Source: Calothrix anomala FACHB-343 (lineage in GTDB: Bacteria; Cyanobacteriota; Cyanobacteriia; Cyanobacteriales; Nostocaceae). Taken from it: 52,136 nt of DNA. This document shows positions 4,637 through 50,104 of the stretch, one piece after another. Positions within the stretch are counted from its first letter, which is position 1. Each line of letters begins with the position of its first letter. Under the pieces are notes generated by a model, which was not told the DNA's origin, searched no databases, and saw nothing but the letters and a program-made list of their open reading frames with translations. The stretch lies in contig NZ_JACJQG010000072.1 of the NCBI RefSeq assembly GCF_014696435.1, forward strand, positions 1-52,136. Direction: 5' to 3'. The position numbers and the translations under genes are program-made.

Positions 4637-5812
4637 TTATGGCGTGTTAGGAATTAACCTACCGCAAGGATAGGTAGCTGCTTGCTGGTTTGCACTTTCG
4701 ACGACAGCCGCAGGAATTTTATCTGATGGTTGCGCTTTTGCTGCAAGATAATCTTGGCGGAGTTTTTCGACAATTGTTTCTCGCTTGTCGTATAGCCGCT
4801 TTAATTGGCGTGGCTGGTTTTTTTGCAGCACATAAGCGGTTACCAATGGTAAAGCGATCGTGCTATCGGTGTAACAAACAATTGTGCTAGGTAACTCTTC
4901 CGGGTCAATTTTACCCCAGCTAACCGCTTCTGAAGGTGTCGCCCCGGACAAGCCACCTGTATCAGGACGCGCATCGGTAAACTGGACAAAGTAGTCATGT
5001 CCCCGTTCTTCTAAGCCTAGTACCTCGTGAAGTTGCGGTTGGGTTTGTAGCAAAAAGTTCTTCGGACTACCGCCACCAATAATCACAGCTGCGCTTTTAC
5101 CTTCAGCTTCTCGTGCATTGTAGGCGATCGCAGCTGTTTCGTTAACATCAATAGAAGGATCGATAATTAATTGCGAACCTTCCAAAGCTAAAGCGGCGAC
5201 ATTCATCCCAATAGAACTATCCCCAGGAGAAGAAGTGTAAATCGGTACGCCACATTCATAAGCTGTTGCTAGCAAGCAGGAATTTTTCACCCCTAATTGC
5301 TTTTCAATTTCCCAGACATACTTACCTAGCAAATAGTGAAATTCAGCCGTTCCCATGCGCTTTTGAAAAGCTTCTGCTTGCAGTATCTTGCGGATAAATG
5401 CATCAGTTTCTAGCAGCACATCATAGCCGAAAATAATGTCATAAATGCGGATAGTTCCTTCTTGACGTAGTTTCACATCATCCAAAAAGGGATTACCCGC
5501 AAATAATTCAAAACCCAAACCATAGTGCATATCGTGATAAAGATTTGCACCAGTGCTAATCATCCAGTCAATAAAGCCGTTGCGAATTAACGGCGCAAGG
5601 GCGGAAACCCCAAATCCGGCTGGTGTCATCGCCCCAGAAAGACTTACACCGACTGTGACACCAGGGGTTAACACCTCACGACTCAGCAGTTGACATATTT
5701 CCCGCAACCGCGCGGAGTTGTAAGCGGTAAAGTAATTATCAATCAAATCAACTACGCCGATATCGGTGGACATGGGAATCGGTGCAATTTTTTGACCTAG
5801 TTTTTTTGACAT
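4637..5812 (-). CDS. Deoxyhypusine synthase-like (homospermidine synthase-like) enzyme
   Basis: A 391-residue protein of the deoxyhypusine synthase fold. Seen: [19 protein letters not shown] near residue 50, [15 protein letters not shown] near 85-99, [12 protein letters not shown] near 200, and the NAD-binding [16 protein letters not shown] near 246-261 followed by [20 protein letters not shown]. Eukaryotic enzymes transfer an aminobutyl group from spermidine to eIF5A. Bacteria lack eIF5A, so bacterial members are thought to act in polyamine metabolism, for example homospermidine formation from putrescine or spermidine in an NAD-dependent reaction. The last 35 residues ([20 protein letters not shown] onward) form a low-complexity tail beyond the fold. 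It is a single gene; no polyamine partners are nearby. Confidence 0.85.
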
Positions 5813-8942: not shown

Positions 8943-11321
8943 TTATTGAATCAATGCTTGAAAGCGTTCATCTTCCCGAATGCTATCAAAATCAGAGTCA
9001 GTTTTTGCCATTTCTCGAACTTCTTCAGGACTGAGATTAATTGCTTGTTGCAGATTTTTTAATGTCTGCTCAATGTTATTTTGAAGTGCATAATAGCAAG
9101 CTTTATTGTACCAAGCTTGGTGGAAATCAGGTTGAATCTCTAAGGCTTTGTCATAGGATGCGATCGCTTGTTCATTGCGTCCCAAATTCCCTAGCGCAAT
9201 CCCCCGGTTGTACCAAGCATCGTGATCATCAGGTTTAATCTCTAAAGCTTTGTCATAGGATGCGATCGCTTGTTCATTGCGTCCCAAATTAAATAGCGCA
9301 TACCCCCGGTTGTTCCAAGCATCGTGATCATCAGGTTTAATCTCTAAGGCTTTGTCGTAGGATGCGATCGCTTGTTCATTGCGTCCCAAATTAAATAGCG
9401 CATACCCCCGGTTGTTCCAAGCATCGTGATCATCAGGTTTAATCTCTAAAGCTTTGTCGTAGGATGCGATCGCTTGTTCATAGCGTCCCAAATTAAAAAG
9501 CGCATACCCCCGGTTGTTCCAAGCTTGGTGTATATCAGGTTTAATCTCTAAAGCTTTGTCGTAGGATGCGATCGCTTGTTCATAGCGTCCCAAATTAAAA
9601 AGCGCATACCCCCGGTTGTTCCAAGCTTCGTGATCATCAGGTTTAATCTCTAAAGCTTTGTCGTAGGATGCGATCGCTTGTTCATTGCGTCCCAAATTAA
9701 ATTGCGCATACCCCCGGTTGTTCCAAGCTTCGTGTTTATCAGGTTTAATCTCTAAAGCTTTGTCGTAGGATGCGATCGCTTGTTCATAGCGTCCCAAATT
9801 AAATTGCGCATTCCCCCGGTTGTTCCAAGCTTCGTGATCATCAGGTTTAATCTCTAAAGCTTTGTCATAGGATGCGATCGCTTGTTCATAGCGTCCCAAA
9901 TTAAATTGCGCATTCCCCCGGTTGTACCAAGCTTCGTGGTAATCAGGTTTAATCTCTAAAGCTTTGTCGTAGGATGCGATCGCTTGTTCATTGCGTCCCA
10001 AATTAAATTGCGCAATCCCCCGGTTGTACCAAGCTTCGTGTTTATCAGGTTTAATCTCTAAAGCTTTGTCGTAGGATGCGATCGCTTGTTCATTGCGTCC
10101 CAAATTAAATTGCGCATTCCCCCGGTTGTTCCAAGCTTCGTGATCATCAGGTTTAATCTCTAAAGCTTTGTCATAGGATGCGATCGCTTGTTCATTGCGT
10201 CCCAAATTAAATTGCGCAATCCCCCGGTTGTACCAAGCTTCGTGGTAATCAGGTTTAATCTCTAAAGCTTTGTCGTAGGATGCGATCGCTTGTTCATAGC
10301 GTCCCAAATTCCCTAGCGCAGTCCCCCGGTTGTTCCAAGCTTGGTGGTAATCAGGTTTAATCTCTAAAGCTTTGTCGTAGGATGCGATCGCTTGTTCATA
10401 GCGTCCCAAATTAAATAGCGCATTCCCCCGGTTGTTCCAAGCTTGGTGGTAATCAGGTTTAATCTCTAAGGCTTTGTCATAGGATGCGATCGCTTGTTCA
10501 TAGCGTCCCAAATTCCCTAGCGCAATCCCCCGGTTGTACCAAGCTTCGTGATCATCAGGTTTAATCTCTAAAGCTTTGTCGTAGGATGCGATCGCCGCTT
10601 CATATTCTTTTGCCGAAACCAACAAATTTCCCAGTTCAAATAGTAAACTTACCTTACTATCTTCTGTCTGATGTTTTTCTGCCAATAAGTCTTGAATTTC
10701 TAAGACTTTTTCAATTTTTTGTTCTTGGCTAAGTTTCAAATACTGCTCATAGTCTCCTGACAATATCAAACGAGTTGATTCCTGTTCTACCAATTCTGGT
10801 GTAGTTGGTAATTCAAACATTCCCGAACGCCAATCAAAAAAATCTGGGGCGCGGTGGATAAAATAGTTTATGGAAAATGACCGCAAAAGAAACACAAAGC
10901 AAAATGGTAAATCATCTCTAAACCGTTCTCGCTGTTGATTTAGATGATTTAAAATATGCGGTACGCTGGTTAAATTGCTGAATTGTCCTTCTGTAATTTC
11001 ACCAAAAGTTCTTTTTTCGTATTTATATAAAGAATATTCCAGACCTTTAATTAATAAAATATCAATTTGTTTATCTTTAACAAACTCAGCCACTCGCGCA
11101 TATAAATTATCGATTGATTCAACTAAGCGCAAAGCTTCTATCTGCTTCTGGGGAATATCCTGTGGAAGTTTAGCAATTAAATTCTCGGCTTCCACAGGTG
11201 TACATTGCACAAAAAATAAGCCAAATCCTGATTTGCGCTTGAGGGCGCGAACTAAATCTTGATAGGCTGCTTCTGGTTCTGGGGGTAAATCGTCATCCCA
11301 ATCATCTACATTTGGGTTCAT
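8943..11321 (-). CDS. iSTAND-like N-terminal domain protein with about 15 near-identical TPR repeats
   Basis: A 792-residue protein, ATG 11321, overlapping the upstream AAA-ATPase gene by 4 nt (ATGA). Residues 1-185 contain FGLFFVQCTPVEAENLI, a strand-loop IDILLIKGLE, FCFVFLLRSFSINYFIHRAP and DFFDWRSGMFEL. This layout resembles the inactive STAND-like NTPase domains of bacterial NLR-like and conflict proteins, with no Walker A lysine. Residues about 235-745 are 15 TPR units of 34 residues (EQAIASYDKALEIKPDxHxAWNNRG), almost identical to each other, then one diverged unit (about 747-779). TPR superhelices bind peptide partners. Coupling to the ATPase suggests a sensor or scaffold role; the specific function is unknown. 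The repeat identity points to recent expansion. Confidence 0.85.
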   Translation of the reverse strand: MNPNVDDWDDDLPPEPEAAYQDLVRALKRKSGFGLFFVQCTPVEAENLIAKLPQDIPQKQIEALRLVESIDNLYARVAEFVKDKQIDILLIKGLEYSLYKYEKRTFGEITEGQFSNLTSVPHILNHLNQQRERFRDDLPFCFVFLLRSFSINYFIHRAPDFFDWRSGMFELPTTPELVEQESTRLILSGDYEQYLKLSQEQKIEKVLEIQDLLAEKHQTEDSKVSLLFELGNLLVSAKEYEAAIASYDKALEIKPDDHEAWYNRGIALGNLGRYEQAIASYDKALEIKPDYHQAWNNRGNALFNLGRYEQAIASYDKALEIKPDYHQAWNNRGTALGNLGRYEQAIASYDKALEIKPDYHEAWYNRGIAQFNLGRNEQAIASYDKALEIKPDDHEAWNNRGNAQFNLGRNEQAIASYDKALEIKPDKHEAWYNRGIAQFNLGRNEQAIASYDKALEIKPDYHEAWYNRGNAQFNLGRYEQAIASYDKALEIKPDDHEAWNNRGNAQFNLGRYEQAIASYDKALEIKPDKHEAWNNRGYAQFNLGRNEQAIASYDKALEIKPDDHEAWNNRGYALFNLGRYEQAIASYDKALEIKPDIHQAWNNRGYALFNLGRYEQAIASYDKALEIKPDDHDAWNNRGYALFNLGRNEQAIASYDKALEIKPDDHDAWNNRGYALFNLGRNEQAIASYDKALEIKPDDHDAWYNRGIALGNLGRNEQAIASYDKALEIQPDFHQAWYNKACYYALQNNIEQTLKNLQQAINLSPEEVREMAKTDSDFDSIREDERFQALIQ
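9108..10610 (-). repeat. 102-bp tandem DNA repeat encoding TPRs, one HIP1 site per unit
   Basis: About 15 units of 102 bp, each encoding one 34-residue TPR. Every unit except the most 5' one carries GATGCGATCGCTTGTTCA on the plus strand, so a HIP1 octamer GCGATCGC recurs every 102 bp (the 5'-most unit has GATGCGATCGCCGCTTCA). Units differ mainly at three or four codons (YEQ/NEQ, the residue before HEAW/HQAW, NN/YN, and LFN/QFN/LGN). Confidence 0.92.
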
Positions 11322-35837: not shown

Positions 35838-37088
35838 GTGATTAGCAGCAAATTGTACAAGTTTTTGGGATTGGCAATAGCGATCGCGATCGCCATGATT
35901 ATTTGGCACAGTTTATCACTATCCCAGATATCTACAGGGGTTACTGTGAAACTTAGCGGTTGGGGAGGTAATCAAGTTGAGCAAAAACTCCTCAAACAGG
36001 TAATCCAAGATTTTGAAACACAGCACCCCCAAATTAAAGTTAAGTATGAGGTAATTTCCGATCAATACATGGATGTAATTAAAACTCGCTTAATCGGAGA
36101 AGCCGCACCAGATGTATTTTATCTAGATGCGCTGGAAGCTCCTTTTTTGATGAGTCAAAACGTCCTCGAACCGCTAGATGGTTATATTACCCCCGAATTT
36201 GATTTAGCCGATTTTGAACCTAACCTACTTAATAGCTTCAAATACCAAAACCAAATTTACGGCTTTCCCAAAGATTACTCAACCCTGTCGCTGTTTTATA
36301 ACAAAAAAGCCTTCGCTAACCTGGGTTTAAATAGTCCACCCAAGACTTGGGAAGAATTACGCAGCTACTCTCGGCAATTAACAGGTAAGTTGAATAAATA
36401 TGGCTTTGGAGAAGTTCCCGAATTAGCCCGTCAAGCGTATAAAATTAAAGCCTTTGGCGGACAAATTATTGGTAAAAATGATAATGCTACCTTTGCCAGG
36501 GAACCAGGTTTACAGGGTTTGCAATTAGTTATCGATCAGTATCAAAAAGATCGTACCTCTGCCCAAAAATCCGATGTAGGGACAAACTCAGGTAGCGAAA
36601 TGTTTGGACAGGGTAAAGTTGCAATGGTAATTGAGGGGAATTGGGCGCTGACTTATCTTCAGGAAACTTTCCCCAATTTGGAGTTTGCTACCGCAGAAGT
36701 ACCAACTATTAATGATAAAAAAAATACAATGGTTTTTACCGTCGCCTATGTAATGAATAAACAAGCCAAACACAAAGCTGAGGCTTGGGAATTAATTTCT
36801 TATCTCACAGGTAAAGCCGGAATGGAAAAGTGGACGGGAACCGGGTTTGCGCTACCGACGCGAAAATCTGTAGCAGAGAAATTAGGTTATGACAGAGATA
36901 CTTTGCGATCGCCTTTTGTAAGCGGTGTGTCCTACGCTACGCCTTGGCAAGCAGGCAAATATCCCGCCGCTATTGTGAATAATTTTGATAATCAATTTAT
37001 TAGCGCTTTGTTAGGGGAGCAGCCGTTAAAGCAAGCAATGGTGCGGGCAGAAAATGCGGCGAATCAGGAGATTACAGCGATGGAATAA
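35838..37088 (+). CDS. ABC transporter sugar-binding protein (family 1 solute-binding)
   Basis: 416 residues, GTG start 35838. The N-terminal hydrophobic segment (LGLAIAIAIAMIIWHSL) is a signal peptide or anchor; there is no lipobox cysteine. The core has the family-1 pattern: VTVKLSGWGGNQVEQKLLKQ, IKVKYEVISDQYMDVIKTRL, PDVFYLDALEAPFL, FYNKKAFANLGL-PPKTWEELRSYS, GKVAMVIEGNW and a C-terminal AWELISYLTGKAGMEKWTGTG. Binds a sugar or oligosaccharide in the periplasm. No permease or ATPase gene is adjacent, so it is an orphan subunit. A second such protein is at 43456. Confidence 0.9.
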   Translation: MISSKLYKFLGLAIAIAIAMIIWHSLSLSQISTGVTVKLSGWGGNQVEQKLLKQVIQDFETQHPQIKVKYEVISDQYMDVIKTRLIGEAAPDVFYLDALEAPFLMSQNVLEPLDGYITPEFDLADFEPNLLNSFKYQNQIYGFPKDYSTLSLFYNKKAFANLGLNSPPKTWEELRSYSRQLTGKLNKYGFGEVPELARQAYKIKAFGGQIIGKNDNATFAREPGLQGLQLVIDQYQKDRTSAQKSDVGTNSGSEMFGQGKVAMVIEGNWALTYLQETFPNLEFATAEVPTINDKKNTMVFTVAYVMNKQAKHKAEAWELISYLTGKAGMEKWTGTGFALPTRKSVAEKLGYDRDTLRSPFVSGVSYATPWQAGKYPAAIVNNFDNQFISALLGEQPLKQAMVRAENAANQEITAME

Positions 37089-38577: not shown

Positions 38578-38660
38578 TTCAAAATTCAAAATTCAAAATT
38601 CAAAATTAAGAATTCTTTTTGACTTTTGCCCAATGCCCAATGCCCAATGCCCCATGCCCT
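38578..38660. repeat. CAAAATT heptamers and CCCAATG heptamers
   Basis: AATTCAA 7-mers (38578-38606) then GCCCAAT heptamers (38624-38660) fill the gap between two minus-strand genes. The AATTCAA family also appears at 46800-46826. Confidence 0.85.
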
Positions 38661-41391
38661 AAAACATCAAGTTAAAAAAGAAGGCGGTAAAACCTAACAT
38701 TAGCAACAAATGTGGCAGATTTTGCAAAAGCGATCGCTTAGTCATGCGTAGCAGTGGATAGGGACTAAACACCATTGCAGAAATTAGGGTAACGCCTTGC
38801 AAAAATTGCGCTACATCTAAACTCCAACTGAGAGAGGGTAAGCCAGCGCCACTGTAGCCCAATGTTTGTGCTAAAACTGGCAGAATTTGCCCAGCTTCCG
38901 TCACAGCAGCCGGAATATAATGAGCGAGATTAGCTGCTAGAGTTAAAGGTAGGTAGGCATAAATCACGGTGAGATAGTCTGGTTGCTGTTTATCGAAAAA
39001 ACGCGCGATCGCATGAGTGGAATAAGTCAAAATGGCGGGAATGCTCAGAAGCGCCAGCACAATCGGCAGGCTAATGAGTAAATGCTCGGAATCAAGGGAA
39101 ATATCACCAAATCCCAACCATCTGAGAATTTTCTGCCCGTTATGCATGAATACACCACCCAACAGCAGCAGCAACAGCGCGACTTCTGCCCAAAATCCTT
39201 TGTGGTTATCGAGTAAATCTGAAGCTGGGAAGCGTAAATTCAATTGTGCAGAGCGATTGGGACAGCCTTTCAAGCAAGTCATACACAGCACACAGTCGCG
39301 GTTATCCTGCAATTGCGCTGGATGTAAATAAAGCGGACAACCTCCCGTTTGCTGTCCTTCGCTTGCTAAAGCTTCAGCAAAGGTAATGGGGGTTGGTTTA
39401 GTGCCCTTATAACAGCCAAAGGTGGTACATTGACTACCACATAACTGTTGTGCCGATCGCAATTCAATTACCGACAATTTGGCAAATAAACCATTCATTC
39501 CACCGATGGGGCAAAGATACCGACACCATAATCGCCGTTCGTAGATGAGGCTAAAAATGACGGCTCCGGCGGCAATTGTCAACAGTAACCAAGCAGACAG
39601 GTAAGCATGGTGCGGTAAGTCCCAGAGTTTCTCCCATAGGTAAATAGCTACAAAACCGGCGAAGACAATCCAACCGCCCCAACGGTTCAACCATTTGCTA
39701 TTCCAAGTGAGTTGCTGGCGGGGAAATAGCCACATAGAAATGCGCCTAATTACGGCTCCGGTAATCATGAATGGACATACAGCACACCAAAGCCTACCCA
39801 CAAAGGCAAACAGAAATAGATAACCAGGCCACCACCAAGCCCAAAATAAATTTAGGGTAATACTGCTATCCCGATTTTGCGGCCCTATAAAACCCCAAAC
39901 TACCACAGGGACAAAAATTGCCATCATAATTACCCAAATACCCTTGGGATACCAGCGACTCAACAAAATTTGTCGCAACCAGGGTACATGAGTTAACAAA
40001 TCCAAGCGAAAAGCGTTTTTAGTTGATTCTACTGACCATAATGCCTGTTCTGGAATCACAGAATACCCCGGTGGCGTCATAATCGTGGCTCGGTGCAAAA
40101 TCTCTGCCAGTTCTGTCACGTTTGCAGGGTAGTCATAGCTAATTAAGCGGCGGAGATCTGATTGATCGAGTTTTAACAAGGGGCGGTTTTGTTCGCAGCA
40201 AAACTGCTTTAAAAAATACTCAGCAAAGTGGGGTATATCGGCTTTGCGTTGAGGTAGGGTAAAGAGTTTAATGGTAATCGCTTTAATATCCGGTAAATCT
40301 AGTTTATTTGGCGATGCGAGGATGAGACGTACCTGAGATTCAATTTTTGGTGCAGGTTGTGTAATCGGATTAATTTTGCCGATAATACCTTGGTTTGGCA
40401 GAATTAATCCAGTTTTGATGTAGTGACTTAAACGAGCGCGATCGCCTAGACTCAAAACATGTACATTATCTAATAGCAGGGTTCCTCGCTCTAACAGTTC
40501 TAAAATCCCTCGTTGCTGTCCTATCCTACCAAACAGCACATCCGTATCTAGCCGCCCATCTTCCGCGCGCTGTAACGCCCCACAGTCAATTTCGGCAAAG
40601 GTTTGGGAAGCCAAACTAGAACCAGCATGAATCAAACCTGCAAAGAAGGTTTTCCCCGTACCTGCTTGTCCCTGTAACACCACAGGCTGAAGATTGGCTG
40701 CGGCTTGATTGATTTGTTCTGTGAGTTTTTGTGCGCCTTTACTATTACCAATAATGCTTGTATTTGTTGGTAATGGCTGAATATAAGCCTGTAAAGCTTG
40801 AATCCGTTCTTGTTCCCAAGCAATCCGACTAGTATATTCATACAAATCTTGCGATAGTTGAGAATGAATCAAACGTTCAATTTCGGGGAATTCTGCAATC
40901 AGCTTTTGAAATGCAGCCTTTGGTAAAAATAATATTTGGCATTTTGTCAGAGCGATCGCATTAGTTTGATATGTTCCTTCTACGCCATTCGCAATCAAAA
41001 CATAGCCAAATAAATCTCCTGCATGTCGATAGCGAATTAATGATTGCCCAATTAGCGATCGCCGAAAAATCTCCACCTTTCCCGACTGCAAAAGATATAA
41101 TCCTATAGGGGTATGTCCCTCCTGGTAGATTAAAGTTTCCGGTTCTACATTAAAACAATGAAACGATTGCGCGATCGCTTCTCTTGCTGATTGTGACAAT
41201 TTCCCCCAAAGTTCATGCAGACTCAGCCAATTCAGGCAATCTTCCCCATCATTAACTATATTTGTCATCAACGGTAATGGTTGTTCTAAAATTACCGCTA
41301 CAGGTTGATTTTGCCTGTTTTCTTGAAAATCATGTACCAAATCCAGGCTTTGTGGAAACGAGGGATGATGATTATATTTATTTAAGTACAA
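38659..41391 (-). CDS. Fusion: cyclic-nucleotide-binding domain + degenerate NtrC-type AAA+ + NapH/NosR-type membrane ferredoxin
   Basis: Up to 910 residues (TTG 41391; first ATG 41268 would remove 41 residues). Residues about 60-190 form a CRP-like nucleotide-binding domain (LIYQEGHTPIGLYLLQSGKV, AGDLFGYVLIANG). About 212-450 is an NtrC-type AAA+ domain: Walker A GQAGTGKT (241-248), DVLFGRIG, GTLLLDNVHVL as Walker B with Asn where catalytic Glu is expected, and no GAFTGA loop. No helix-turn-helix follows. About 484-910 is membrane protein with 8-10 helices: RLWCAVCP (536-540), RLWCRYLCP (623-628), CGSQC...C, and a 4Fe-4S motif CVLCMTCLKGCP (700-711). It should be an inner-membrane redox protein with a sensory cytosolic half. 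Substrate and partners are unknown. Confidence 0.88.
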   Translation of the reverse strand: MYLNKYNHHPSFPQSLDLVHDFQENRQNQPVAVILEQPLPLMTNIVNDGEDCLNWLSLHELWGKLSQSAREAIAQSFHCFNVEPETLIYQEGHTPIGLYLLQSGKVEIFRRSLIGQSLIRYRHAGDLFGYVLIANGVEGTYQTNAIALTKCQILFLPKAAFQKLIAEFPEIERLIHSQLSQDLYEYTSRIAWEQERIQALQAYIQPLPTNTSIIGNSKGAQKLTEQINQAAANLQPVVLQGQAGTGKTFFAGLIHAGSSLASQTFAEIDCGALQRAEDGRLDTDVLFGRIGQQRGILELLERGTLLLDNVHVLSLGDRARLSHYIKTGLILPNQGIIGKINPITQPAPKIESQVRLILASPNKLDLPDIKAITIKLFTLPQRKADIPHFAEYFLKQFCCEQNRPLLKLDQSDLRRLISYDYPANVTELAEILHRATIMTPPGYSVIPEQALWSVESTKNAFRLDLLTHVPWLRQILLSRWYPKGIWVIMMAIFVPVVVWGFIGPQNRDSSITLNLFWAWWWPGYLFLFAFVGRLWCAVCPFMITGAVIRRISMWLFPRQQLTWNSKWLNRWGGWIVFAGFVAIYLWEKLWDLPHHAYLSAWLLLTIAAGAVIFSLIYERRLWCRYLCPIGGMNGLFAKLSVIELRSAQQLCGSQCTTFGCYKGTKPTPITFAEALASEGQQTGGCPLYLHPAQLQDNRDCVLCMTCLKGCPNRSAQLNLRFPASDLLDNHKGFWAEVALLLLLLGGVFMHNGQKILRWLGFGDISLDSEHLLISLPIVLALLSIPAILTYSTHAIARFFDKQQPDYLTVIYAYLPLTLAANLAHYIPAAVTEAGQILPVLAQTLGYSGAGLPSLSWSLDVAQFLQGVTLISAMVFSPYPLLRMTKRSLLQNLPHLLLMLGFTAFFFNLMF

Positions 41392-41896
41392 TTTCGTAAC
41401 TCCAATATTTAATTAAAAACTTAATTTAATTTTTCAGTATTTATTTTTAGAATTTTTAGAAAAATTGAGTCACAATTGACTATCAAAGTAGGCGTATTCA
41501 CCGATTAATGCATCATATTTTTCATGTTAAAACCCTGTTATAGATCAAGATAATTTAATTTGTCAAAGTATACATATATTTGTAAATCCTACCTTTTCGT
41601 TACCTTTTTTTACTTAGCTCAAAATGATGAAACTAAAAAACTCTGCGCACCTTTGCGTTAACCTTAGCGCCCCTTTGCGTTTCCCAAAGATATAATTTCC
41701 TGCAACTTCATAAATAGTATGAGAAGGCGTTGCATAATTGCGGGATGATTTATCTCACGCAGAGGCGCAGAGACGCAGAGAGAATAAGGAGTGGAAAATT
41801 TCAATAGCTCAAAATCCATCCCCTAATTCAGCAATGCCTATGAGAAAATCGGCGTTGCATAAATCCGATGAAATGCGATTGCATCCATCAGAAATA
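41392..41896. other. Gene-free region with CTCTGCG repeats
   Basis: AT-rich upstream region of the fusion gene (its promoter should lie here), then CTCTGCG-type repeats near 41640-41690 and 41758-41782 around GCGTTGCATAA duplicates. I do not support the 63-residue plus frame here. Confidence 0.5.
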
Positions 41897-43455: not shown

Positions 43456-44799
43456 GTGTCCAAATTTTTTTCGCCCCAGCACTATCCCCAGCGTCACAGC
43501 AGACAGTTCTCCCGCTACCTGAAATACTGGCTGTTGATGTTATTTGTGGCGGTATTAGTTGTTACTGGCTGTCAAGCAATTCTCCGCCAGCCAGAAGCAA
43601 AGGTAATTCATATTACCTTGTGGCAAGGCGTGAATCCACCGCAAAATCGGGATGTATTGCAAAAGCTAGTAGATAAATTTAATCAAACTCATCCGCATAT
43701 TCAAGTAGAATCGTTGTATGTTGGGCAACAGGATCAGCAAATGCCCAAAATTTTGGCGGCTGTAGTCGGCAATGCACCGCCGGATTTATTATGGTACAAC
43801 CCAACCATCGCCGGTCAATTAGTGGAACTTGATGCCATCATTTCTGTAGATGAAATGCTGGCAAAATCACCAGTAAAAGCAGAAATTGACCCGACTTTAT
43901 TTGCATCGATGGAATATCAGGGTAAAATCTGGTCAATACCCTTTGCAACAAATAATGTCGGCGTTTTTTACCGTCCTAGTCTGTTTAAAGCCGCCGGAAT
44001 TGACAAGTTACCGCAAACTTGGGAAGAGTTGCGCCAAGTAGCCAAGAAATTAACCAGAGATAGCGATGGCGATCGCAAAATAGATAAATACGGAATGCTT
44101 CTTCCTCTAGGTAAAAGCGAATTTACCGTGTTTACTTGGTTACCCTTTATGTGGAGTGGTGGTGGTGAACTTGTCAGTGGTGATGTACAGCAAGCTGCTG
44201 CTGTGAATTTAACAGAAAATCAAGGCGCGATCGCCGCTTTACAATTTTGGCGCGATTTAATCACCGATGGTTCGGCGATGTTATCCGAACCAGAACGAGG
44301 TTATGAAGTTAATAACCTGGTGAATGGTAAAGTTGCAATGCAAGTCACTGGCCCCTGGAGTCTGGGAGAATTTCAACAAAGTGGTGTAGATTTTGATGTC
44401 TTCCCCATTCCCAAGCAACAAAATCCGGCTACTAGTATTGGTGGCGAGAATTTATTCTTATTTAAAACTACGCCAGAACAGCAAAAAGCCGCCTTTCAAT
44501 TTGCAGAATATGCTGTCAGTGAAGCATTTCAAACCGAATTAGCTTTAGGAACTGGTTATTTACCTGTAAATGTGCGATCGCGCCAAAGTAGTAAATACCA
44601 AAAATTTATTCAGAAATTCCCTCAAATACAGGTATTTTTAGACCAAGCAAAATTCGGGCGATCGCGTCCTATTTTTCCTAATTATTCACGCATTTCTGAC
44701 AATCTAGGTAGAGCGATTGAATCTGTATTATTAGGTAAAAATTCACCAGCAGAAGCTCTCAAAATTACTCAGCAACGCCTAGATTTAATTTTTCAGTAA
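43456..44799 (+). CDS. ABC transporter sugar-binding lipoprotein (family 1)
   Basis: 447 residues, GTG start 43456. Signal peptide of lipoprotein type: basic start, hydrophobic YWLLMLFVAVLVV, lipobox VTGC (Cys about 39). Core: VIHITLWQGVNPPQNRDVLQ, IQVESLYVGQQDQQMPKILA, PDLLWYNPTIAGQL, VFYRPSLFKAAGI-PQTWEELRQVA, DSDGDRKIDKYGMLLPLG, GKVAMQVTGPWSLGEFQ. It binds a sugar or sugar-phosphate in the periplasm for an ABC importer whose membrane and ATPase genes are not adjacent. Paralogue of the 35838 protein but in a different subgroup. Confidence 0.92.
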   Translation: MSKFFSPQHYPQRHSRQFSRYLKYWLLMLFVAVLVVTGCQAILRQPEAKVIHITLWQGVNPPQNRDVLQKLVDKFNQTHPHIQVESLYVGQQDQQMPKILAAVVGNAPPDLLWYNPTIAGQLVELDAIISVDEMLAKSPVKAEIDPTLFASMEYQGKIWSIPFATNNVGVFYRPSLFKAAGIDKLPQTWEELRQVAKKLTRDSDGDRKIDKYGMLLPLGKSEFTVFTWLPFMWSGGGELVSGDVQQAAAVNLTENQGAIAALQFWRDLITDGSAMLSEPERGYEVNNLVNGKVAMQVTGPWSLGEFQQSGVDFDVFPIPKQQNPATSIGGENLFLFKTTPEQQKAAFQFAEYAVSEAFQTELALGTGYLPVNVRSRQSSKYQKFIQKFPQIQVFLDQAKFGRSRPIFPNYSRISDNLGRAIESVLLGKNSPAEALKITQQRLDLIFQ

Positions 44800-45170: not shown

Positions 45171-46655
45171 ATGCCCCATGCGTCCAGTAACAACAGCACA
45201 TTGACTAATAACGGGCTAAATATTAATCCTATTTCCTCCGCAGATACTTTTACTTCTCAAGATGACTACAATTTTAATCTCAGTGGCAGAAGTAGTTTTG
45301 ATAATAATATCAATGCTGTAAACGCCAATTCTACTCAGGCTCAATCGCTAAATAGTGAAGATACCATGAGTACTATGAGTTATGACTCTACCACTGGATA
45401 TGGATTAGTGAATGCCGCAGCCGGAGTTGCTAGAGGAATTGGACAAAATACCTTTACTGATGTTGCCGATTTAGGTGGTAATAGTTGGAATGTAGACATG
45501 GTAAAAGCCCCAGAAGTGTGGGCTAGAGGATACACAGGACAAGATATTATTGTTGCTGTGATTGATACGGGAGTTGACTATAATCACATAGATTTACAAA
45601 ATAATATTTGGACTAATACTCGCGAAGTTGCTAATAATAATATAGATGATGATGGTAATGGTTATATTGATGATATTCACGGTTGGAATTTTGTAGAAAA
45701 TTCCAACGATCCCATAGATAGAAACGGTCACGGTACTCACGTTTCTGGGACTATTGCTGGTGAAAATAATGGTACTGGTGTGACAGGTATTGCCTATAAT
45801 TCCAGAATTATGCCAGTGAAAGTTTTAAATGATTCTGGCTCTGGTTCTATTAGTTCAATTACTCAAGGTATTTACTACGCTGTCAATCAAGGAGCTAGAG
45901 TAATTAATCTCAGCTTGGGTAGCGATTTTCCTAATAATTCTTTAGCATCAGCTATTGAATATGCTAGCAGCAAAGGTGTAGTAGTTGTGATGGCAGCTGG
46001 TAATAATGGGTTACCGATCCTATCTTATCCTGCTAGTTATGCAAATAGATGGGGATTGGCTGTAGGCGCAGTCGATCGCAATAATCAGATTGCAGATTTT
46101 TCTAATACACCAGGAATCAGTCAACTCGCTTACGTGACAGCGCCAGGAGTGGGTATTTACTCATCATTACCAGGCAATCAATATGGTAGTTATAATGGCA
46201 CATCTATGGCTGCGCCTCATGTTGCTGGGGTAGTAGCTTTAATGCTCAGTGCTAATCCTAGCCTAACTGATGCCCAAGTACGTCAATTTATGACACAAAC
46301 TGCGGGTAATGGGGGACAAAATCCAGACGTTGGATTAAGTGCTGGTTGGTTAGCCGATGAATTTATTGCAGAGATAGCAAGAAATCCGGCTAAATTTTCG
46401 ACAGTCAATTTTGATGATAGCGCGATCGCCGAAAATCAGACCATAGATTTAAGCGCGAATAGTTCCACACCAGCCTCAAGCGTCGATTTATTCAGCAATG
46501 CAAACATCAATTCTCAATACCGCTATTATGATAGCAGTCTGCAAACAGACAATAACAATAGCCCCGAAAACGATCAGACACAAGATATACAAAGCATCCT
46601 GGAAAGATTTCAACAACAAATGGATGAATTGCGCCAATGGTTTGCTAACCCATAA
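45171..46655 (+). CDS. Subtilisin-like serine protease (S8), no signal peptide
   Basis: 494 residues, ATG 45171 with GAGGAG 9 nt upstream. The catalytic triad is complete: Asp in VAVIDTGVDYNHIDL (about 127-141), His in GHGTHVSGTIAG (about 187-198), Ser in NGTSMAAPHVAG (about 343-354), with the oxyanion Asn in MAAGNNG. Between Asp and His is a Ca-loop-like NNIDDDGNGYIDD. The first 90 residues are Asn/Ser-rich and start with no signal peptide; DDYNFNLSGRSSFDNNI at about 24-40 resembles a fragment of the domain at the start of the calpain-like protein. The tail (about 420-494) is polar and Gln/Asn-rich. Probably secreted without a Sec signal, possibly through the HlyD-linked exporter. Confidence 0.93.
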   Translation: MPHASSNNSTLTNNGLNINPISSADTFTSQDDYNFNLSGRSSFDNNINAVNANSTQAQSLNSEDTMSTMSYDSTTGYGLVNAAAGVARGIGQNTFTDVADLGGNSWNVDMVKAPEVWARGYTGQDIIVAVIDTGVDYNHIDLQNNIWTNTREVANNNIDDDGNGYIDDIHGWNFVENSNDPIDRNGHGTHVSGTIAGENNGTGVTGIAYNSRIMPVKVLNDSGSGSISSITQGIYYAVNQGARVINLSLGSDFPNNSLASAIEYASSKGVVVVMAAGNNGLPILSYPASYANRWGLAVGAVDRNNQIADFSNTPGISQLAYVTAPGVGIYSSLPGNQYGSYNGTSMAAPHVAGVVALMLSANPSLTDAQVRQFMTQTAGNGGQNPDVGLSAGWLADEFIAEIARNPAKFSTVNFDDSAIAENQTIDLSANSSTPASSVDLFSNANINSQYRYYDSSLQTDNNNSPENDQTQDIQSILERFQQQMDELRQWFANP

Positions 46656-46887: not shown

Positions 46888-47230
46888 CATTCTAAATCCC
46901 CCTAAATTCCTTCCCGATCGAGCTTTCATTATTTTGTATAGGAAAATTATTGCCATAGCACATGGAATCTCTAAATTCCATATTATTCATCATCACGACT
47001 TAAAAAAGGGTGTTTTCATCTAGAACAACACGCATGAAGCCATATTTTTTTATAAGTATCATTTTAACTTTAATTGTACTTCACAAAAAAATACGCAGGT
47101 ATACCCTTACTATTTCTGCATGAGCAAATGCAGAATGTAATCAATATGTATTTGGCTGGCAATTCTATTTAAAAAACCTTTGCTACACAAGGTAGCAAGC
47201 ACTTTAATTTAGCAATTGGTAAGAGGATTT

Positions 47231-50104
47231 ATGACTTTTGATATTTCAGATAACACGCTAAATACAGCTTTGAATATAAATTTAAATTCTAACCCTCAAA
47301 CTTTCAACAACTTGGTGGGTTTGTCAGATCCAAACGACTTTTATCGCTTCAACCTTAGTAGCCGCAGTAGTTTTAGCCTCTCTCTCGATAAGTTATTAGC
47401 TGATGCAAATGTACAAATAATTCGCGACTATAACTTAAATGGTGTAGTTGATACAGGTGAAATTATTACTGGTTGTTATACTACAGGAACGGCTCCTGAA
47501 TCGCTCAAAACATCTTTAGAGAGTGGTACATACTTCATAAGAGTTTACTCAGCCAAGGGTGATACTAAGTATAATTTGAGTGTTTCTGCTCAAGTAATTA
47601 ACAGTATTCCCAATAATTTACAATTCAACCTCAATAATACTAGCCTCAAATCTACAGATACTCTCAGCATTAATAATGCTTGGGTATATGATGACAATGG
47701 TGTGGGAAACATTGCACGGGTAGATTTCCGCATTAAAAAATCCGATGGAACCTTCGTTAATGTCGCTGATGTGATGAGTTTCACACCTTCAACTACTGAC
47801 AATCGTTGGGGAAGTTTCAACTACAGCCTATCGTTGAGTAATTTAACCTTAGCAAATGGAAAATACAGCCTTTCGGCATTAGCTTACGATAAATCAGGCG
47901 CTAAAAGTAATTTAGTTGAACAGACATTTAGCTTCAGCAATAACATCGCACCTACTCAATTACAATTCAACCTAAATAATACTAACCTTAAATCTACAGA
48001 TACTCTCAGCATTAATGGTGGCTCAGTCTATGATGCTAACGGTGTCACAGATATCTCTCGCGTAGATTTCCGTATTAAGAAATCCGATGGAACTTTTGTG
48101 GATGTTGTGGATGTTGTAAATTTCACACCTTCAACTAATGAAAATCGCTTGGGAAGTTTCAACTACAGCTTATCGTTGAGTAATTTAACCTTAGCAAATG
48201 GAAAATATAGCCTTTCGGCATTAGCTTACGATAAATCAGGCGCTAAAAGTAATTTAGTTGAACGTGAATTTAGCTTCACCAATAACATCGCACCTACTCA
48301 ATTACAATTCAACCTCAATAATATCAGCCTTAAACCTACAGATACTCTCAGCATTAATGGTGGCTCAGTCTATGATGCTAACGGTGTCACAGATATCTCT
48401 CGCGTAGATTTCCGTATTAAGAAATCCGATGGAACTTTTGTGGATGTTGTGGATGTTGTAAATTTCACACCTTCAACTAATGAAAATCGCTTGGGAAGTT
48501 TCAACTACAGCTTATCGTTGAGTAATTTAACCTTAGCAAATGGAAAATATAACCTTTCGGCATTAGCTTACGATAAATCAGGCGCTAAAAGTAATTTAGT
48601 TGAACGTGAATTTAGCTTCACCAATAACATCGCACCTACTCAATTACAATTCAACCTCAATAATATCAGCCTTAAACCTACAGATACTCTCAGCATTAAT
48701 AGTGGCTTAGTTTATGATGCTAACGGTGTTACAGATATCTCTCGCGTAGATTTCCGCATTAAGAAATCCGATGGAACTTTTGTTGATGTTGTGGATGTTG
48801 TGAGTTTCACACCTTCAACTAATGACAATCGCTTGGGAAGTTTCAACTACAGCTTATCGTTGAGTAATTTAAACCTAGCGAATGGAAAATATAGCCTCTC
48901 GGCATTAGCTTACGATAAATCAGGTGCTAAAAGTGATGTAGTTGAACGTGAATTTACAATTCAGATTACTAGTGATTGGTTTAGCCAAAATCTCATAGAT
49001 AAACAAATAATCGATCTGACGCGACTGCGTGCAGCTGATAATAAATTAAGCCGCCAAGATATGATTGATATCTTTCGTGATGCGAGAGATGGCGGTTTAA
49101 TTGATAGCAATGAACTACAGGATTTGCGGAAAATTGTCAGTGAATCTAGCCGCTTCAATATAGACGATCATGTACGTGTGTTATCTAACAAAGTTATTAA
49201 TAGTGATGTTGCAAATAAAAATTACAAGGGTAGCGCATTAGGTAACTTGTATGCTGGTAGCAGCGCCACGCAAATGGATCGGCTAATTGATAAGTGGTTT
49301 TTAGGAGGCGATCGCCCAACCGCACCAACTGGATTTACAATGACTTATCAGCAAGCTTCAGGTAGTTTATTTGGTAGCGATGGTACATTCAACTACCAAG
49401 ATGTTAAGCAAGGTTTCTTAGGTGACTGTTACTTCTTAGCTTCTTTAGGCGCAACAGCACGCCAGCAACCATCGGCAATTACAAATATGTTTATTGACAA
49501 TGGTGACGGGACTTTTACAGTCAGATTCTACGGTCAATACAATGGTAAAGTTACTACAGCTAGTGATTATGTCACCGTCGATCGCTGGTTACCAACCAAT
49601 GTCTCAGGTGAGGGCTACACCGGACAAAGATTTGCTAAATACGACAATCTCAATCTAGGCTTGTGGGTAGCTTTAGCAGAAAAAGCTTATGCTCAATTTG
49701 CTGAATCTGGGCTATCTCAACGTGATTCTAATGCTAACAGTTATGGCAGCATTGAGGGCGGTTGGGGTTATCGGGTAATGCCATCTCTTACTGGTATCAG
49801 TGGGGGTTACTATGCTGATACAAGTTGGAGTAATACAGGAACTCGTTCGGGCGCTTTTCTAAGTTTGTCGCAAATAGCTACTATGTTAACTACTGGAAAA
49901 GCAATGACAGCCGATACTATTTCTAATCCAGGATTAAATATTGTTGGCGGACATGAGTACACTATTATTAGTGCTGACACCACAAATGGAACTTTAACTC
50001 TCTATAATCCTTGGGGTGTGACAAGACAAGGTGAAACTAATGGTGTTCTAACTCTGTCTTACAATGATTTCCGCAATAATTTTCTGATAATTAATGCTGC
50101 TTAA
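47231..50104 (+). CDS. Calpain-like cysteine protease (C2) with four Ig-like repeats
   Basis: 957 residues from ATG 47231, with AGAGGA 4 nt upstream; the frame can be read 5 codons further from TTG 47216 but this is less likely. Residues about 1-120 resemble a PPC (bacterial pre-peptidase C-terminal) domain: DPNDFYRFNLSSRSSFSLSL, GTYFIRVYSAKGDTKYNLSV. About 125-575 are four near-identical 114-residue beta-rich repeats (LQFNLNNxSLKxTDTLSIN...YDKSGAKSNLVE). About 580-660 is a helical linker. About 700-957 is a calpain-type catalytic domain: QGFLGDCYFLASLG (Cys), GGHEYTIISAD (His), TLYNPWG (Asn). No signal peptide. Calcium dependence and target are unknown. Confidence 0.93.
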   Translation: MTFDISDNTLNTALNINLNSNPQTFNNLVGLSDPNDFYRFNLSSRSSFSLSLDKLLADANVQIIRDYNLNGVVDTGEIITGCYTTGTAPESLKTSLESGTYFIRVYSAKGDTKYNLSVSAQVINSIPNNLQFNLNNTSLKSTDTLSINNAWVYDDNGVGNIARVDFRIKKSDGTFVNVADVMSFTPSTTDNRWGSFNYSLSLSNLTLANGKYSLSALAYDKSGAKSNLVEQTFSFSNNIAPTQLQFNLNNTNLKSTDTLSINGGSVYDANGVTDISRVDFRIKKSDGTFVDVVDVVNFTPSTNENRLGSFNYSLSLSNLTLANGKYSLSALAYDKSGAKSNLVEREFSFTNNIAPTQLQFNLNNISLKPTDTLSINGGSVYDANGVTDISRVDFRIKKSDGTFVDVVDVVNFTPSTNENRLGSFNYSLSLSNLTLANGKYNLSALAYDKSGAKSNLVEREFSFTNNIAPTQLQFNLNNISLKPTDTLSINSGLVYDANGVTDISRVDFRIKKSDGTFVDVVDVVSFTPSTNDNRLGSFNYSLSLSNLNLANGKYSLSALAYDKSGAKSDVVEREFTIQITSDWFSQNLIDKQIIDLTRLRAADNKLSRQDMIDIFRDARDGGLIDSNELQDLRKIVSESSRFNIDDHVRVLSNKVINSDVANKNYKGSALGNLYAGSSATQMDRLIDKWFLGGDRPTAPTGFTMTYQQASGSLFGSDGTFNYQDVKQGFLGDCYFLASLGATARQQPSAITNMFIDNGDGTFTVRFYGQYNGKVTTASDYVTVDRWLPTNVSGEGYTGQRFAKYDNLNLGLWVALAEKAYAQFAESGLSQRDSNANSYGSIEGGWGYRVMPSLTGISGGYYADTSWSNTGTRSGAFLSLSQIATMLTTGKAMTADTISNPGLNIVGGHEYTIISADTTNGTLTLYNPWGVTRQGETNGVLTLSYNDFRNNFLIINAA
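47600..48955 (+). repeat. Four 342-bp tandem repeats inside the calpain-like gene
   Basis: The phrase CCTACTCAATTACAATTCAA recurs at 47951, 48293 and 48635, giving a period of 342 bp (114 codons); the first unit starts about 47600 with a diverged copy. Units 2 and 3 are almost identical at the DNA level, so they were duplicated recently or homogenised. Confidence 0.92.

Follow-up and report, generated by a model that had tools for sequence, protein, structure and literature searches.

On a 52,136-nucleotide stretch of DNA from the cyanobacterium Calothrix anomala FACHB-343 (contig NZ_JACJQG010000072.1, analysed at full length and hereafter called the window), a single reading frame encodes a roll of the cyclic-nucleotide-binding type (CRP/FNR-like), an AAA+ domain related to those of sigma-54 activators, and an iron-sulfur membrane domain. 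Judged by its sequence and relatives, there is about an even chance that this fused protein serves the response of cyanobacteria to sulfide or low oxygen, as a membrane redox protein whose AAA+/CRP head regulates it without hydrolysing ATP. A survey of the architecture and its gene neighbours, proposed in an initial annotation of the window, revealed a link that was absent from that annotation, to the cysteine synthase gene cysK and to sulfide/low-oxygen gene islands, and it is this link that carries most of the functional information. If the reading is true, many cyanobacteria have retained a transcription-factor AAA+ module that no longer serves transcription and instead forms the head by which a membrane redox protein is regulated, one clade keeping the P-loop without the catalytic Glu, and names in public use, for example 'nitrogen assimilation regulatory protein', would be corrected. 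The link to cysK and sulfide islands also offers a role, open to direct testing, in the way that oxygenic phototrophs cope with sulfide and low oxygen.

A contig scan across the genomes of 84,980 species, from which the best 80 loci were kept, gives a family of at least 80 loci, all under names that we take to be recognisably cyanobacterial. These split into 59 window-like clade I loci (55–93% identity in the best segment, the closest to the window gene being L045 from Tolypothrix sp. FACHB-123 at 93%) and 21 clade II loci (38–41%); the window genome holds a second copy, 41% identical. Among 146 sampled cyanobacterial genomes 43 were matched, and once two with the AAA+ part only (G106 and G134) had been dropped, 41 held the AAA+ and membrane parts, the CRP-like part being unmatched in five of them (G014, G087, G109, G119 and G141). 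Clade I is present in four of the 41 (G000, G078, G087 and G116) and the other 37 have clade II only, the commoner form in this sample of the phylum. Trees built from the full-length protein, the head only, the membrane domain only, or the AAA+ and membrane parts all separate the two clades with full support, which suggests joint inheritance of head and membrane unit.

Neighbouring open reading frames were clustered for the 80 loci and the window, with flanks of unequal length. A same-strand cysK lies downstream in 31 of the 59 clade I loci, as the next open reading frame in 29 and within 50 bp in 21; five clade I loci without it have less than 1.2 kb of downstream DNA before the contig edge, some with it being likewise short, and in L066 cysK stands upstream instead. 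Downstream cysK was found in none of the 21 clade II loci, the contig ending right after the gene in at least one of them (L121). The sole neighbour enzyme scanned, that of L065, scores above the cysK cut-off, and the neighbour CysKs form a group of their own (66–97% mutual identity, at most 61% to the three own-genome CysKs compared); by these sequence measures, the neighbour CysK is a dedicated cysteine synthase. The gene–cysK pair also occurs on plasmid2 of Aulosira laxa NIES-50, typed as conjugative, and on pPg_03 of Pseudanabaena galeata (17 and 5 bp apart, respectively), with petC and psbA nearby on both plasmids. In a reduced tree of 44 rows, which leaves out contig-end, short and near-duplicate rows and in which a few early forks are weakly supported, all 12 early-branching clade I rows have cysK, with five changes, and the Nostocales subclade that holds the window copy is without the link. 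The pairing is likely, though not proven, to be ancestral in clade I.

Other clade I neighbours, for each of which one example was scanned, are rhodanese, ArsR, TauE, psbA, petC, a Tll0287-like protein, cydB and an SQR-like protein, together with an MBL-fold hydrolase whose example scores below the cut-offs of its NCBIfam models; cydA, an RND pump, a haem oxygenase, a HemN-like protein and one rhodanese cluster were labelled by reading their sequences alone. Of 16 island clusters, one or more lie near 40 of 59 clade I loci versus 1 of 21 in clade II; without counting cysK the figures are 27 versus 1, and for two or more clusters, cysK again excluded, 23 versus 0. This context and the cysK partner favour a clade I role in the physiology of sulfide or low oxygen. 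Separately, upstream near some clade I genes (L053:9345-9935, L054, L059 and L068) a methyltransferase was noted whose TehB match is weak and does not reach the cut-off.

The same association is seen at the level of whole genomes. SQR, called at E up to 1e-60, is present in 35 of the 48 clade I genomes examined, which were drawn from 50 of 58 loci, compared with 21 of 146 in the phylum sample and 13 of the 37 clade-II-only genomes (Fisher p 0.0008 for clade I versus clade-II-only, uncorrected for ancestry), and in three of the four clade I genomes inside the phylum sample. The SQR of the window genome is similar to solved SQRs (E 3.5e-94) and lies on a contig other than that of the fused gene, in an island where an ArsR regulator adjoins it, with pump genes, rhodaneses, an MBL-fold gene and a TauE-like gene (the pump, rhodanese and TauE-like labels being read from translations). 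The SQR and MBL-fold genes of this island diverge, and the DNA separating them contains two palindromes, ATWACTATATAGTWAT, at L141:9018-9033 and 9591-9606 (0 and 1 mismatch); the palindrome precedes several SQR/MBL genes in other cyanobacteria and is a candidate ArsR operator. As an operator shared with the fused gene it was considered and set aside: at up to three mismatches it occurs in 7 of 48 clade I upstream regions versus about 0.9 in shuffles, and no claim is made because three of the seven matches come from one close group. According to passages of PMC12466478, polysulfide raises pdo, rhod, tauE and cysK2 in Synechococcus PCC 7002, genes of the same kinds as those around clade I.

Several observations weigh against the sulfide/low-oxygen reading. 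In a fuller tree, the early-branching L090, L096 and L097 are without cysK and ten changes are needed. The 16 island clusters counted above were chosen after inspection of the data, with unequal flanks and tests that ignore shared ancestry, and in the DNA examined none of them lies near 19 of the 59 clade I loci, the window locus included. No SQR match was obtained in 13 of the 48 clade I genomes, several of which are metagenome assemblies of completeness not given. The window contains four matches to ATWACTATATAGTWAT at up to three mismatches, none upstream of the fused gene (one falls within the next gene downstream of it), and in Synechococcus PCC 7002 polysulfide lowers sqr, as stated in the same passages of PMC12466478. 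Clade II shows no sulfide-type context, so the core job of the family need not be sulfide. Finally, the ferredoxin-like stretch is poorly modelled, the predicted local distance difference test score (pLDDT) being below 50 at residues 648–699 of the predicted structure.

The fusion itself, as described in the initial annotation, is borne out by the frame and by Pfam, which places cNMP_binding at residues 81–167 (E 9.9e-15), Sigma54_activat at 213–330 (E 5.6e-14) and AAA_lid_14 at 381–440 (E 2.9e-12), all above cut-off, and Fer4_5 at 600–640 (E 2.3e-7, 31.1 bits versus a cut-off of 22); relatives share it. A misassembled join was rejected, as a single frame of at least 800 aa is found in 71 of the 80 kept loci (72 of 81 rows with the window). 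In L091, L095, L099 and L102, the N-terminal part of the clade I protein is in a separate frame, owing to broken genes or draft-assembly errors. No helix-turn-helix family is among the 11 Pfam families listed at E≤1 for the 910-aa protein; a Fis-type C-terminal helix-turn-helix has no Pfam match, and membrane helices come after the AAA+ domain instead.

Pfam, alignments and structure comparison (which barely tests the membrane part) agree on an NtrC-type AAA+ fold with lid. Its motifs were scored in 56 of the 60 rows that clade I has with the window (the four split loci just named drop out with the region missing) and in 48 clade II rows, comprising all 21 from the contig scan and 27 from a genome search, among which species may overlap. 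The Walker A motif GQAGTGKT is intact in the window protein, as first read; in clade I the P-loop K-T is kept in 55 of 56 rows, with the first Gly changed to Ala or Ser in 37, and the Walker B Asp is kept in 32, while clade II has K-D in 48 of 48. The Asn for Glu in LLLDNVH is likewise confirmed, and the Glu is missing from every row scored (clade I: Asn 52, His 2, Gln 2; clade II, 0/48 with Glu: Asn 46, Lys 2). GAFTGA-like text (GA[FY][TS]G) occurs in none of the 56 and 48 rows, and alignments of the window protein to NifA, VpsR and NtrC4 lack both the GAFTGA hairpin and the arginine-finger segment, in which we take the arginine fingers of NtrC/PspF to be located (motif FREDLYYRL). Alignments, motif scoring and Pfam thus all agree with the initial annotation that GAFTGA and helix-turn-helix are absent; neither relatives that keep GAFTGA and the Glu nor a misjoin of two genes was seen, and the view that this architecture has left sigma-54 transcription stands. 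From its residues, clade I is equipped for holding nucleotide in most respects, and not for hydrolysing it, and clade II has lost even the P-loop Thr, though in a fixed manner. Only in clade I is the suggested role of the AAA+ part as an ATP-binding sensor plausible, because K-T is retained there and K-D has replaced it in clade II.

The accompanying statement that cyanobacteria lack sigma-54 agrees with the window genome, in which Sigma54_DBD has no match at E 0.001; among 142 sampled genomes six match at E≤0.001 and one is over the Pfam cut-off. Passages of PMC3162934 report sigma-54 and its activators as absent in 29 sequenced cyanobacteria. In the genome over the cut-off (G125), the sigma-54 DNA-binding domain belongs to a 202-aa frame that stands alone (L033:1459-2067, minus strand, 62 bits), in a phylum said to be without sigma-54.

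In the N-terminal roll, the usual Glu place is occupied by Tyr in 48 of the 54 clade I rows with a letter there, and the aligned usual Arg place by Arg in only 7 of 54, the window protein having Tyr and Gln; we take the Glu and Arg to be phosphate-binding cassette residues of cyclic-nucleotide sites. Cyclic-nucleotide binding via the usual residues is unsupported for the window roll, which lacks both, and because of this the 'nucleotide-binding' of the initial annotation, matched as a fold, is a fold name only. The long helix of the roll runs into the AAA+ domain in the predicted structure, and Pfam shows no helix-turn-helix. At L006, L096 and L097 (L006 and L096 probably from one organism) the clade I protein has about 700 aa and no CRP-like part, so the roll may be dispensable.

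Most invariant columns fall in the membrane domain, whose Cys are retained. Averaged hydropathy gives 16 peaks, merged by hand to about nine helices, within the 8–10 first proposed. Positive charge is concentrated ahead of helix 1, in the 2–3 loop, after helix 4, and in the 6–7 and 8–9 loops, and because of this pattern the cytoplasmic side would hold the head together with the two Cys-Pro motifs and the ferredoxin-like stretch. Electron transfer across the membrane and its gating, as first proposed, are conjectural. NapH/NosR/CcoG-type proteins have two CX3CP motifs; here the Cys are invariant and the second motif is CX3CP, as initially described, while the first is CX2CP. The ferredoxin-like stretch contains one regular CX2CX2CX3CP and four more invariant Cys of unusual spacing. 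Counted over the Cys-Pro motifs and this stretch, twelve Cys are conserved at 97–100% in both clades (C710 in 97% of clade I rows, the other ferredoxin-like Cys in 100% in both). The NapH and NosR models score 36.4 and 20.8 bits, far below their NCBIfam cut-offs of 213 and 1000, and no solved structure matches the membrane part by sequence at E≤1. The domain resembles a stand-alone Deinococcus 4Fe-4S membrane protein over 93% of its length, and haloarchaeal and Azospirillum (FTR1 gene cluster) stand-alone 4Fe-4S membrane proteins over 40–64%.

By analogy with electron-transfer units of the NapH/NosR/FtrD type, the fused protein may work as such a unit to which a head has been added. The membrane unit would connect the quinone pool, or else a partner in the envelope, with an electron acceptor or donor in the cytoplasm, and the head would be a clamp setting its activity through ATP held unhydrolysed (clade I) and a ligand or redox signal on the roll. 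Cysteine synthase would consume sulfide entering or produced, so clearing it. The window copy comes from a subclade without the cysK link, and its genome has an SQR island elsewhere. A bolder version, which we regard as speculative and rather improbable, makes clade I an ATP-clamped membrane reductase that produces sulfide from polysulfide, thiosulfate or other sulfur species (or transfers electrons from sulfide) and supplies it to CysK, a sigma-54 activator motor thereby being turned into an allosteric head. A C-terminal Ile for CysK binding was sought by eye; the tail of the protein is the end of a membrane helix, and no claim is made.

Alternatively, the protein could be a membrane-tethered redox sensor and regulator, whose iron-sulfur unit reads quinone or sulfide state and whose head signals by protein contact with RNA polymerase, a transcription factor or CysK, as TyrR and VpsR act without sigma-54. 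We give this a real, if minor, chance; against it, the Pfam scan shows no DNA-binding domain, the protein terminates in a membrane helix, and the invariant columns lie mainly in the membrane domain and not in the head. It is unlikely that the protein is instead a CcoG/FtrD-like reductase for metal handling or cofactor maturation, keeping metal reduced for island-encoded cytochromes and photosystem parts. Distant relatives of the membrane domain do stand in an Azospirillum FTR1/cupredoxin cluster and beside a His-rich protein in Deinococcus, and cydAB, petC and psbA occur near some clade I members; however, these relatives in metal contexts are just 25–28% identical, and it is cysK, rather than a metal gene, that occurs most often as neighbour. 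That the gene is a decaying sigma-54-activator relic in an unimportant chance fusion is very improbable: Walker B is degenerate, and Walker A too in clade II, but the AAA+ and membrane parts are matched in 41 of 146 sampled genomes, the altered residues are nearly fixed in each clade, and both halves of the protein yield the same two clades.

Table 1. Features of the fused gene and its surroundings, in window coordinates.
Feature	Position	Strand	Remarks
Fused gene	38659..41391	-	TTG start, 910 aa, stop codon included; no internal stop
GGAG, ribosome-binding-like	41400..41403	-	8 nt 5' of TTG
CRP/FNR-like roll and long helix, residues 49-200, without DNA-binding domain	40792..41247	-	
NtrC/NifA-type AAA+ domain and lid, residues 213-440	40072..40755	-	
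Walker A GQAGTGKT, residues 241-248	40648..40671	-	K-T kept in 55/56 clade I rows
Walker B LLLDNVH, residues 305-311, Asn replaces catalytic Glu	40459..40479	-	Glu in 0/56 clade I rows
NapH/NosR/FtrD-type iron-sulfur membrane domain, residues 480-910, ~9 helices	38662..39954	-	Fer4_5 and NapH models, hydropathy, positive-inside pattern
First Cys-Pro motif CAVCP, residues 536-540	39772..39786	-	Both Cys in 59/59 clade I rows with a letter there and 21/21 clade II rows
Second Cys-Pro motif CRYLCP, residues 623-628	39508..39525	-	Both Cys in 60/60 clade I and 21/21 clade II rows
Ferredoxin-like stretch: C651, C655, C660, C685 and C700-x2-C703-x2-C706-x3-C710-P	39262..39441	-	Cys conservation
Next gene 3', UbiH/VisC-like flavin adenine dinucleotide (FAD) hydroxylase, 419 aa	37228..38487	-	171 bp away

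Among the clustered loci, the UbiH/VisC-like neighbour adjoins the fused gene elsewhere only in its nearest relative, L045. Sugar-type solute-binding proteins flank the fused gene (35838-37088 and 43456-44799), and no ABC permease is among the 17 of 43 window open reading frames scanned with Pfam. Further along the window, a subtilase gene (45171-46655) precedes one for a calpain-like protein (Peptidase_C2) that carries Big_13 repeats (47216-50104), and a deoxyhypusine-synthase-family protein is encoded at 4637-5812, in a cyanobacterium. Rfam gives zero matches at gathering score within the window.

Among the papers listed in literature searches, no description of the fused gene was seen in titles, beginnings of abstracts and passages, which is not proof of absence. 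The passages of PMC5061849 do not mention it, and 'cysteine synthase', 'cyclic nucleotide' and '4Fe-4S' are absent from that text; by keyword, PMC8002359 gave just an arsR passage and PMC5776472 nothing. The proximity of sqr, arsR and psbA described in PMC5061849, in the passages available, for Geitlerinema and others is a type of neighbourhood shared by many clade I genes.

Compared with known systems, the fused protein shares the AAA+ fold with lid and the Walker A motif with the sigma-54 activators NtrC, NifA, NorR and PspF. In contrast to them, it is without GAFTGA, the arginine-finger segment, the Walker-B Glu (Asn instead) and the helix-turn-helix, it is membrane-bound, and sigma-54 was not found in its genome; on the sequence features tested, its membership among sigma-54 activators fails on five. 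NtrC relatives of the VpsR and TyrR type are DNA-binding regulators, whereas the fused protein has a membrane redox unit and no DNA-binding domain. As in the fused protein, GAFTGA is lost or changed in VpsR, TyrR and other NtrC relatives, according to passages of PMC3162934. With NapH, NosR, CcoG and FtrD it has in common Fer4_5, Cys-Pro motifs at helix ends and ferredoxin-type Cys, but differs in its first motif (CX2CP), its atypical first cluster site and the added CRP and AAA+ head, and, relative to NapH, in extra C-terminal helices past the stretch matched by the NapH model.
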